64,000 bases of DNA from an uncultured Pseudomonadales bacterium. Its GTDB lineage: Bacteria > Pseudomonadota > Gammaproteobacteria > Pseudomonadales > Pseudohongiellaceae. The stretch lies in contig CASIAB010000007.1 in assembly GCA_949372635.1 (NCBI GenBank), positions 62,001 through 126,000 on the forward strand. Reading direction: 5' to 3'. A program made the position numbers and the translations under genes. The notes under the pieces were generated by a model that searched no databases, had not been told where the DNA came from, and was given only the letters and a program-made list of their open reading frames with translations. This document shows, in pieces, positions 49,580 through 54,418 of the stretch. Each line of letters starts with the position of its first letter. Position 1 is the first letter of the stretch.

Positions 49580-50333
49580 CTAGGGCTGGCTAATCTCGTA
49601 GCCCTTCTGTGAGAGCAAATCTAGCAGCCCGTTCTTGTCTACAATATGAGCCGCTCCGACTAGAACAAATTCAGTGTCCGCGTCTTGTAGCATCCTAACC
49701 GTCTGGAGAACCCATTTAAGGTTTCTTTGTAAAATCAGGGCTTCATAGAGCTCGGGCGCTTCTACCTTCATTCTTCCAAGAATAGCTTGGACAAGCCTTC
49801 AGAATCACCCGAACGCCAGGCACCGATCATACCGCCAATAACGCCGCCCGTTTCTGACAGGCCTCTTTAAAGAGAGAAGGATGAATTCGCTATAGTTACC
49901 CTTTCCCAATGCCGCGATAAGTCCTATTTGTTCCTGCACTCTCACCAATTGCCCTCCTGCTTTTCCACCACCGAGTGCCCGAGTGTGAAAGAACCCATCT
50001 ACTCCTTGAAGTGTAAAGCCCATACTTTGAAATACAAGGATCTGCAGGGTACTAATGAGAAGCTCGGGTTTAAATTCCCCCCAGTATTCCTATCGGCACC
50101 CCTGCAGCCTGCATATAGGCATAAAAGGGTTGTGTCGGCCTGGTCAAATTGATCTGACAGCAAGTAATCGCTAGGTCGCAATAAATACACCGTTCCACCG
50201 AGATAAATAACGTTGCCTCCCGATCGTACTGACCAGACAGATCCATATCTGCAATGGCCTGTGAAATGCCAAGTAGGGCCACACACACAAAAACTGCACA
50301 AGTTCGAAGAATCGACTCCACTGATTTTTGCAT
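49580..50333 (-). pseudogene. TraB/GumN family gene, multiply frameshifted
   Basis: Read on the minus strand from ATG 50333, the fragments line up with a TraB/GumN-type periplasmic protein. First comes a signal peptide (TCAVFVCVALLGISQAIAD). Then, in a second frame, SVWSVRSGGNVIYLGGTVYL with LLRPSDYLLSDQFDQAD. A third stretch is MGFTLQGVDGFFHTRALGGG. AWRSGD and LSKLFLEE follow. The C-terminal RNLKWVLQTVRML and FVLVGAAHIVDKNGLLDLL end at 49580. At least three frameshifts and one nonsense codon separate them, so no functional product is expected. The last fragment is open from 49771. Confidence 0.75.
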
Positions 50334-50505
50334 TTCTACTTCCTCCCACTAATAGCTACTACTTCTTCAAGCAATGTCAATTGCGCGACTTGCATTGCTT
50401 ATCTATTCAGGTATTTACTCTAAGATTTTACACCATTAAGCGTTAAAGGTAGCATGCTCGCAACTAGCGCAAAAGTGAATCAAGACACAGGCCGGCAATC
50501 CCACT

Positions 50506-52589: not shown

Positions 52590-53291
52590 ATGAATGATCT
52601 AAATAAAGCCAGTATTACGGAGCGTCTTGGCAGCAACCTGAATCTGTTTTGGAAGGAAAATAAACAATTTTTCTTATTGCTGATCTGCATCGTCTTTTTC
52701 AAGAGCGCAATTGCCGACCTAAGCTCTATCTCTGGCGCCTCTATGCAACCAACGCTACTCGATGGCGACAAGGTCTGGGTGAATAAGCTCGCCTACGACA
52801 TAAAGATACCCTTTACCGAGATATCCCTAGGCCAGCTCTCCGATCCTTGTGGCGGCGATGTAGTCATCATCGACTCTAAGAAGGCCAATAAGCGCCTTGT
52901 TAAGCGCATTGTCGGCGTGCCTGGCGACACCATATACATGCAAAACAACGCCCTTGTTATCAATGGTGAGGCCGCGCATTACGAGGTTCTCTCCAGAGAT
53001 GACGATTCCATTATCATTCTTGAAGAGCTCCCGGATAAAACGCATCAGGCGCGTTTGTCCAACCGCTTCGTCAGCCGAACCGCTCGCAGCTACGGACCTG
53101 CCGTGGTGCCTGAAGGCCAATACTTCGTGTTGGGAGACAATCGAGATAACAGCGCAGACAGTCGTGTCTACAGCTTCGTACCCAGAGAAGAAATCATCGG
53201 CCGCTCAAACTCCGTGGTTTTCTCTCTTGATAGTGACAATAACTATCTACCGCGTGGCGAGAGATTTCTCGCAGGCCTCGATCAAAATTAA
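52590..53291 (+). CDS. lepB: Signal peptidase I
   Basis: 233-residue type I signal peptidase that cuts exported proteins at the outer face of the inner membrane. One N-terminal membrane helix (FFLLLICIVFFKSAIADL) is followed by the nucleophile Ser-51 in ISGASMQPTLLDGD and the general base Lys-105 in NKRLVKRIVGVPGD. The C-terminal box is YFVLGDNRDNSADSRVY. It is shorter than E. coli LepB (324) and lacks the second helix, like many secondary SipS/LepB copies. A main lepB next to lepA may exist elsewhere. Confidence 0.92.
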   Translation: MNDLNKASITERLGSNLNLFWKENKQFFLLLICIVFFKSAIADLSSISGASMQPTLLDGDKVWVNKLAYDIKIPFTEISLGQLSDPCGGDVVIIDSKKANKRLVKRIVGVPGDTIYMQNNALVINGEAAHYEVLSRDDDSIIILEELPDKTHQARLSNRFVSRTARSYGPAVVPEGQYFVLGDNRDNSADSRVYSFVPREEIIGRSNSVVFSLDSDNNYLPRGERFLAGLDQN

Positions 53292-53507
53292 ACATTAATA
53301 AATTCAGCCCTGTTCCGCTGAATATGCAGCACTAGAGGGCTTCTATGGTAAATATTATGACTCACCGCATTGAAGCCGCTCATCAAATTCTAAGTAATTT
53401 AACTATCTTGAAATAAATTGGCATAAATCAGGTATTGTTAGTTATGCTTTAACATGCTCAAAAAGCGGGGCCAGGGCAAAAGTTTTGTTAAAACTCGCGA
53501 GGTAGTC

Positions 53508-54110
53508 ATGACTCAGAAAAACCAATCCCGCTTCTGCGTGATGAGAAGTTTGTTGCTTACCCTAACGTTGCTTGGAAGCTTCCCGGTTTCGACGGCACAG
53601 GATTTCGCCTGGGCTCCAGACTTTCCAGTAGGCGCATCGGTTCCGGAGATCTCAGCACAAGATCAAGATGGCAATGTTCAATTATTTGACGACTTAAAAG
53701 GCGAGAAGGGCATGCTCTTAATGATGAGCCGCTCCTTCGACTGGTGACCATACTGTAAAGCTCAGCTCGTGCAGCTGACTGAAATCAGTGATCAGATAGA
53801 AGCGATGGGCATCAATGTTATTGCCCTAACCTTTGATTCAGTGGAAATATTGAAGACCGTGCAGGAAGATCAGAACATTCAGTTCCCTCTTCTTCACGAT
53901 GAAGAAGTCACCCATGTGAACGCCTTCGGTATTCGTAATTTAGACTACGAACCAGGGCATCGAATACACGGTATACCATATCCAGGCATATTCCTGATCG
54001 ATTCAAACGGAGTCATTAAGGCCAAGTTTGCAGAAGAGAGATATCAAGATCGACCTCCCTTCGATGACATACTTGAGGCCGTCTCCAGACTTCAAGCGCC
54101 GCAGAACTAA
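53508..54110 (+). CDS. Probable selenocysteine-containing secreted redoxin (AhpC/TSA-like)
   Basis: One frame runs from ATG 53508 (GAGG upstream) to TAA 54110 with a single interruption, a TGA at 53745-53747. The predicted 200-residue protein has a signal peptide (MRSLLLTLTLLGSFPVSTAQ) and a thioredoxin-fold redoxin domain: FPVGASVPEISAQDQDGNVQ, then MLLMMSRSFDW-U-PYCKAQLVQL, INVIALTFDSVEILK and PYPGIFLIDSNGVIKAKF. The TGA is codon 80, exactly the first Cys of the family's W-C-P-Y/F-C motif, and Cys-83 is intact. Both sides are otherwise undamaged. A hairpin with a GU loop follows 20 nt later. Selenocysteine insertion is the favoured reading. The alternative, a plain Cys-to-stop mutation, is possible because the region holds other pseudogenes. 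Read as a stop, only a 79-residue fragment would form. Confidence 0.78.
53745..53778 (+). promoter_or_regulatory. Candidate bacterial SECIS hairpin after the in-frame TGA
   Basis: After TGA 53745-53747, TCAGCT (53762-53767) pairs perfectly with AGCTGA (53773-53778) around the loop CGTGC. The loop starts 20 nt past the TGA, inside the 16-37 nt range known for bacterial selenocysteine insertion elements, and contains G and U as SelB binding requires. The hairpin is short and lies inside the coding sequence, as expected in bacteria. Confidence 0.6.
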
Positions 54111-54418
54111 CGGGGAGACGAAAGGCTTTCCGTTAGTTTTTGTCGAACACTATCAGATATAGTGAACGCGGCACTCTCATCAAAAACCTACCCCGTGCAC
54201 AGCTCAATCCGGTCATACCTGAATATGCAAGGGACGCGGACCTATTCGTTGGGTAGCTCACCGCACTTCGAATAGCATTGTAATTCCTTGTCCTACTACC
54301 CTTTTCCCTTTGTCCGCATCAAATGTAATAATCTAGCCGCACGCAAGGCATGGTCCATGCTATCAAGATGTACCTAGCATAATTCAGTCAGTAATTTAAA
54401 AAATAGCCGAATGTAGAA
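54111..54418 (+). other. 308-bp spacer without a recognisable gene
   Basis: A weak inverted repeat, AACGG...CCGTT followed by AGTTTTTG (about 54109-54144), could terminate the redoxin transcript. The rest has no frame or motif that I can support. Confidence 0.35.

Follow-up and report, generated by a model that had tools for sequence, protein, structure and literature searches.

The in-frame TGA and its surroundings

The window, by which we mean the whole stretch of 64,000 nucleotides analysed here, carries on its forward strand, at 53508-54110, a frame that stays open for 200 codons save for a single TGA at codon 80. In the read-through translation, this codon falls within ...SRSFDW-U-PYCKAQLVQL..., giving the motif W-U-P-Y-C. 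A sequence-only reading of the same DNA had described the frame, the TGA at codon 80 and a retained Cys83 (TGT, 53754-53756), and all three were found where it had placed them. The start codon, 79 codons ahead of the TGA, is common to many orthologues. A Pfam scan of the read-through protein returned PF00578 at 86.3 bits (cut-off 26) and PF08534 at 62.4 bits, also above its cut-off, with the TGA falling inside one Pfam domain (residues 41-172). No NCBIfam model attained its own cut-off, the two best being PRK09437 at 52.9 bits and the SelL-related redox protein model NF040769 at 52.7 bits, far short of the latter's cut-off of 120. The following features were delineated at the locus.

52590..53291, + strand: type I signal peptidase-like gene (Peptidase_S26; PF10502, 138.5 bits), a conserved neighbour separate from the selenoprotein gene
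53508..54110, + strand: coding sequence, stop codon included, of a predicted redoxin selenoprotein of 200 aa with Sec80 (read-through translation, Pfam, orthologue starts)
53508..53597, + strand: putative signal peptide, residues 1-30, with a basic start, a hydrophobic core and S-T-A ahead of Q31 (pattern read by eye)
53745..53747, + strand: TGA codon 80, predicted to be read as selenocysteine (conserved as TGA; Cys codon in homologues)
53754..53756, + strand: Cys83 (TGT), predicted second redox residue of U-P-Y-C
53762-53767 paired with 53773-53778, loop CGUGC at 53768-53772, + strand: bacterial SECIS-type hairpin (covariation, synonymous freezing of codons 86-90)

Counting the window, 38 TGA orthologue loci were compared, and 37 of them have the Peptidase_S26 gene upstream; in the remaining one (L025), the contig ends on that side. 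On the minus strand, at 49580-50349, a TraB/PrgY/GumN gene appears to be broken, with its final 61 profile positions (PF01963, 54.2 bits) in one 63-aa ORF; two further short ORFs there matched no Pfam family. The contrast that the sequence-only reading drew between the redoxin gene and broken genes nearby, here at 49.6-50.3 kb, is therefore plausible.

Conservation of the TGA and of the hairpin behind it

An orthologue was found in 25 of 36 same-genus relatives, and the TGA is present in 25 of 25; the check for Cys or TGA in close relatives, which the sequence-only reading had proposed, thus came out in favour of TGA. Among the remaining same-genus relatives, six have only longer matches of a second type, one (G030) has only a contig-end fragment and four have no match at E<=1e-15. 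The listings of all six longer matches contain a TGA inside the match, and the codon itself was read in two of them (L042 and L043). After deduplication, 44 loci were available, 42 with TGA and 2 with Cys. They comprise 38 TGA orthologues (including L040 and the locus of the window), four more distant TGA loci (L041, L042, L043 and L068) and two Cys loci on contigs of unstated family, L063 (TGC, 53% identity) and L064 (TGT, 52% identity). The frame of L040 extends 215 codons from the TGA against the usual ~116, possibly by stop loss or an assembly join.

Codon usage and dN/dS were analysed in 37 of the 44 loci, namely the window's own and 36 orthologues with 57-89% tblastn identity; L040, both Cys rows and the four distant TGA rows were left out. 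As a count of 37 TGA in 37 would hold by this selection of rows, we quote 42 of 44. In pairwise comparison of 13 close orthologues, codons 31-79 had a median dN/dS of 0.08 (76 of the 78 pairs were usable), codons 91-197 one of 0.07 (63 of 78) and residues 1-30 one of 0.37 (76 of 78). Values beyond the TGA are as low as those ahead of it, indicating translation of, and selection on, the codons that follow it. Of 369 genomes in a class-wide search, one had a match at E<=1e-40 and two at E<=1e-20, both counts including the genome of the window itself; tblastn against plasmids gave 60 records, 8 of them listed, all below 60% identity.

Downstream of the TGA, the hairpin UCAGCU-CGUGC-AGCUGA (53762-53778) has a 6-bp stem and a 5-nt loop that starts 20 nt past the TGA, as had been noted from the sequence; the second loop position is G, followed by U. 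The bSECIS model, as given in PMC13188914, asks for a loop of 3-9 nt, an upper stem of 4-16 bp, a G in the first two loop positions, a UGA-to-loop distance of 16-37 nt and an MFE <= -7.5. With its 5-nt loop, 6-bp stem, 20-nt spacing and an MFE of -11.6 kcal/mol over 45 nt, the element lies within these bounds, the 21-nt hairpin alone having -6.7. Folding of the sequence after the TGA, another proposal of the sequence-only reading, gave a stability that is unremarkable in a single sequence: for the 45 nt, z was -1.47 and 16 of 200 shuffles were equally or more stable, which is not significant, and for the 21-nt hairpin z was -0.69 with 44 of 200. An Rfam scan of 53400-54200 returned nothing at E<=1, a null result that we do not hold against the hairpin, given the wide variation among bacterial SECIS elements (PMC13188914).

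Comparison across sequences gave a clearer picture. Among 32 distinct sequences drawn from the 42 TGA rows, 98.4% of 192 stem cells pair and three of the six stem pairs show two-sided changes. The covariation score was matched by 0 of 500 shuffles, which do not preserve relatedness; when relatedness was preserved by sliding the hairpin, each of six slides gave 0 two-sided changes. One covariation measure counting further pair types was attained by 197 of 500 shuffles. Codons 86-90 are nearly frozen, with a top-codon frequency of 0.95-1.00, whereas 83 other conserved codons average 0.59 (37 TGA sequences). When distant homologues were included, 52 of 54 distinct TGA sequences (all but L039 and L095) had the five inner pairs intact, whereas of 18 distinct Cys sequences only three did (L083, L107 and L110); 98% of stem cells pair in TGA sequences versus 73% in Cys sequences, the latter figure reflecting shared coding sequence. 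L117, with Ser (AGC), was excluded from these counts and from the selB counts below. The hairpin is thus above chance by comparison of sequences, not by its lone fold.

Selenocysteine machinery and the alternatives to recoding

The draft genome that contains the window (2.81 Mb in 15 contigs, 87% complete) encodes tRNA-Sec (selC; 59.9 bits, over the Rfam cut-off, and likewise called tRNA-SeC (tca) by ARAGORN), with selB (374 bits) ~3 kb away on the same contig, as well as selA (567 bits) and selD (282 bits, inside a 757-residue ORF). All four genes that the sequence-only reading wanted sought are therefore present, and it had named the absence of selB and selC as the outcome that would speak against a selenoprotein. 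Two selA matches exceed the cut-off, C11:185756-186886 and C14:37222-38586; the weaker of the two (511 bits) lies at a contig end. The N-terminal part of the selD ORF (L071:1393-3666, minus strand) looks NADH dehydrogenase-like by eye, resembling the NADH dehydrogenase-SelD fusion type mentioned in PMC2398784.

To place the gene in the order, we used a sample of 390 genomes, of which 42, the own genome included, had a match at E<=1e-22. The codon is TGA in 26 of them, Cys in 15 and Ser in 1, and selB exceeded the cut-off in 26 of 26 TGA genomes, 5 of 15 Cys genomes and 0 of 1 Ser genomes (Fisher p 2.7e-6 for selB against Sec or Cys form, the genomes not being independent). Three of the TGA genomes (G679, G749 and G765) have only a longer W-TGA-P-P-C form; excluding them leaves selB in 23 of 23. 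A second genus of this family was sampled with six genomes, five of which have the Cys form; the other ten Cys genomes belong to another family (f220), and one of these has selB. Because four of the five Cys-form genomes of the second genus have selB, Sec is, on this comparison, dispensable for the fold. Related lineages thus carry Cys in place of Sec, with the hairpin mostly degraded. Within f220, L119, L120 and L121 come from genomes with selB and have the long W-TGA-P-P-C form, while the ten other genomes have Cys, nine of them without a selB match. Two same-genus genomes, G024 and G717, have selB without a match to the gene. Conversely, no selB match at E<=1e-70 was found in 3 of 25 same-genus gene carriers, G005 (79% complete), G016 (89%) and G033 (94%); tRNA-Sec exceeded the cut-off in G005 and G033, not in G016. 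A tree of 83 rows, read as unrooted and hence without a direction of change, requires four changes of the TGA label, and three of these are forced by well-supported branches.

These data bear on three readings in which no selenocysteine is made. As TGA is one base away from TGC and TGT, and as the TraB/GumN gene nearby looks broken, the locus might be a pseudogene with a recent nonsense mutation, or a sequencing error, at a Cys codon. However, the TGA recurs in 42 of 44 loci, even in orthologues with as little as 57% identity. The codons downstream are under purifying selection and the hairpin is kept with compensatory changes, which leaves a pseudogene extremely improbable. Decoding of the TGA as Trp or Cys, through suppression or a changed code, has nothing specific in its favour beyond the fact that a single sequence would look alike under a changed code. 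It is set against the presence of tRNA-Sec, selB, selA and selD and against the hairpin, which occurs together with the TGA and has mostly decayed where Cys is found. Moreover, TGA acts as an ordinary stop: of 29 mechanically listed window ORFs of at least 250 aa, 6 end in it, as do 4 of 38 TGA orthologue frames (that of the window counted among the 38). Nothing here points to a code change in general, and we consider decoding as another residue very improbable. A mechanical ORF listing does cut the locus in two (53454-53747 and 53769-54110), as would be expected of a 79-residue N-terminal product followed by a second gene starting at GTG 53769. Yet one Pfam domain crosses the TGA, and P81, C83 and Q86, which lie between the TGA and 53769, are invariant in 32 aligned rows, so that two separate genes have hardly any probability left. 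All three readings were rejected on conservation, machinery, hairpin and domain evidence.

What remains is an in-frame UGA at a position where homologues have Cys (TGC or TGT in 18 distinct homologous sequences), in a frame conserved beyond it, as in selenoproteins. Recoding of UGA-80 to Sec is strongly supported by this comparison, and we infer the insertion itself. The central proposal of the sequence-only reading, a selenoprotein with TGA at the first active-site Cys, is hence supported: selB and selC are present, relatives keep the TGA and dN/dS is not raised.

A putative periplasmic redox pair

Export of the redoxin is probable, judging from the signal pattern read by eye and from A30 and Q31, which hardly vary among 32 aligned rows (90% or more). 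We estimate a mass of about 22 kDa for the full-length chain and about 19 kDa if it is processed. Signal peptides keep their hydrophobic character while their sequence drifts. A selenoprotein that stays in the cytoplasm, with an N-terminus that is no export signal, could be argued from the by-eye nature of the pattern and from the raised dN/dS of residues 1-30 (median 0.37). Nevertheless, the hydrophobic stretch ending at A30-Q31 persists in the 32 rows despite the drift, as it does in signal peptides, and we regard a cytoplasmic location as unlikely.

In a comparison with solved structures, the AhpC/TSA-type peroxiredoxin 5enu scored best (37.6 bits). Residue 80 aligns with the Thr of TPGC in 5enu and with the first Cys of CxxC in the thiol-disulfide oxidoreductase ResA (4nmu), and Cys83 with the last Cys of each motif. 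The ResA CxxC pair thus corresponds to U80 and C83, although ResA reaches only 29.9 bits and BCP-type peroxiredoxins score higher. Peroxiredoxins are defined by a Thr three residues ahead of the peroxidatic Cys or Sec. Sec peroxiredoxins, with the motif TxxU (PMC1088965), belong to the same superfamily, but here Sec80 takes the Thr position of TxxC and Cys83 the peroxidatic position of 5enu, so that the protein has neither TxxC nor TxxU. Descriptions of UxxC Prx-like selenoproteins go back to 2005, to the Sargasso Sea (PMC1088965), and 'Prx-like 1' UxxC selenoproteins appeared in the GOS data in 2008 (PMC2398784); a Prx-like thiol:disulfide oxidoreductase (PF00578, UxxC) and a Redoxin family protein (PF08534, UxxC) are tabulated in PMC13188914. 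With its PF00578 match and U80-P-Y-C83, our redoxin resembles the Prx-like proteins in fold, in having Sec first in UxxC and in occurring in marine samples, and with its PF08534 match and UxxC it resembles the Redoxin family protein. As such selenoproteins have been known since 2005, the redoxin adds a member to a known general kind, and the remark of the sequence-only reading that a periplasmic UxxC redoxin is uncommon was only partly right. A literature search covering few subscription papers returned none on Pseudohongiella selenoproteins or on a UPYC form with selenocysteine.

A second selenoprotein candidate lies elsewhere in the own genome (L068:1268-2398, plus strand; C9 near 248.8 kb), with 377 aa and a redoxin containing W-TGA-P-Y-C. 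An analogous SECIS-like hairpin is found by its TGA, and a domain resembling the N-terminal one of DsbD comes after the redoxin (PF11412, 29.1 bits, cut-off 25); in L042, the other of the two proteins scanned, PF11412 stays under the cut-off at 22.5 bits. Among the 36 same-genus relatives, 16 have long matches that contain a TGA.

Overall, this suggests a model in which SelB and Sec-tRNA(Sec) would bind the hairpin, whose stem starts 14 nt past UGA-80, and insert selenocysteine, and the N-terminal signal would export the chain. In the periplasm, Sec80 and Cys83 would form a U-P-Y-C redox pair: the selenolate of Sec80 may attack a disulfide or peroxide substrate, and Cys83 would resolve the intermediate as a selenenylsulfide. 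A DsbD-type reductant could then recharge the redoxin; a DsbD-like protein is encoded in the own genome, with a DsbD_TM match over the cut-off. To this reading as a whole, an exported AhpC/TSA-Redoxin-fold selenoprotein with Sec80 inserted via SelB and the hairpin, acting as a DsbD-recharged periplasmic redox pair, we give a probability of about 95%.

The apparently broken gene is thus almost certainly intact, its stop codon being read as selenocysteine in the active site of a redox enzyme. Because ORF listing splits the gene at the TGA and no NCBIfam model attains its cut-off, a whole genus may carry wrong annotation for what is probably a selenoenzyme. More tentatively, and with somewhat less than even confidence, the gene might belong to a lineage-wide, as yet unnamed gammaproteobacterial subfamily of exported WUP[YF]C redoxins with periplasmic, DsbD-recharged Sec, in which L068 would be a one-chain relay and the several Sec/Cys switches with SECIS decay a natural experiment. 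The Cys-bearing related lineages would offer a comparison for what Sec adds to an exported redoxin.
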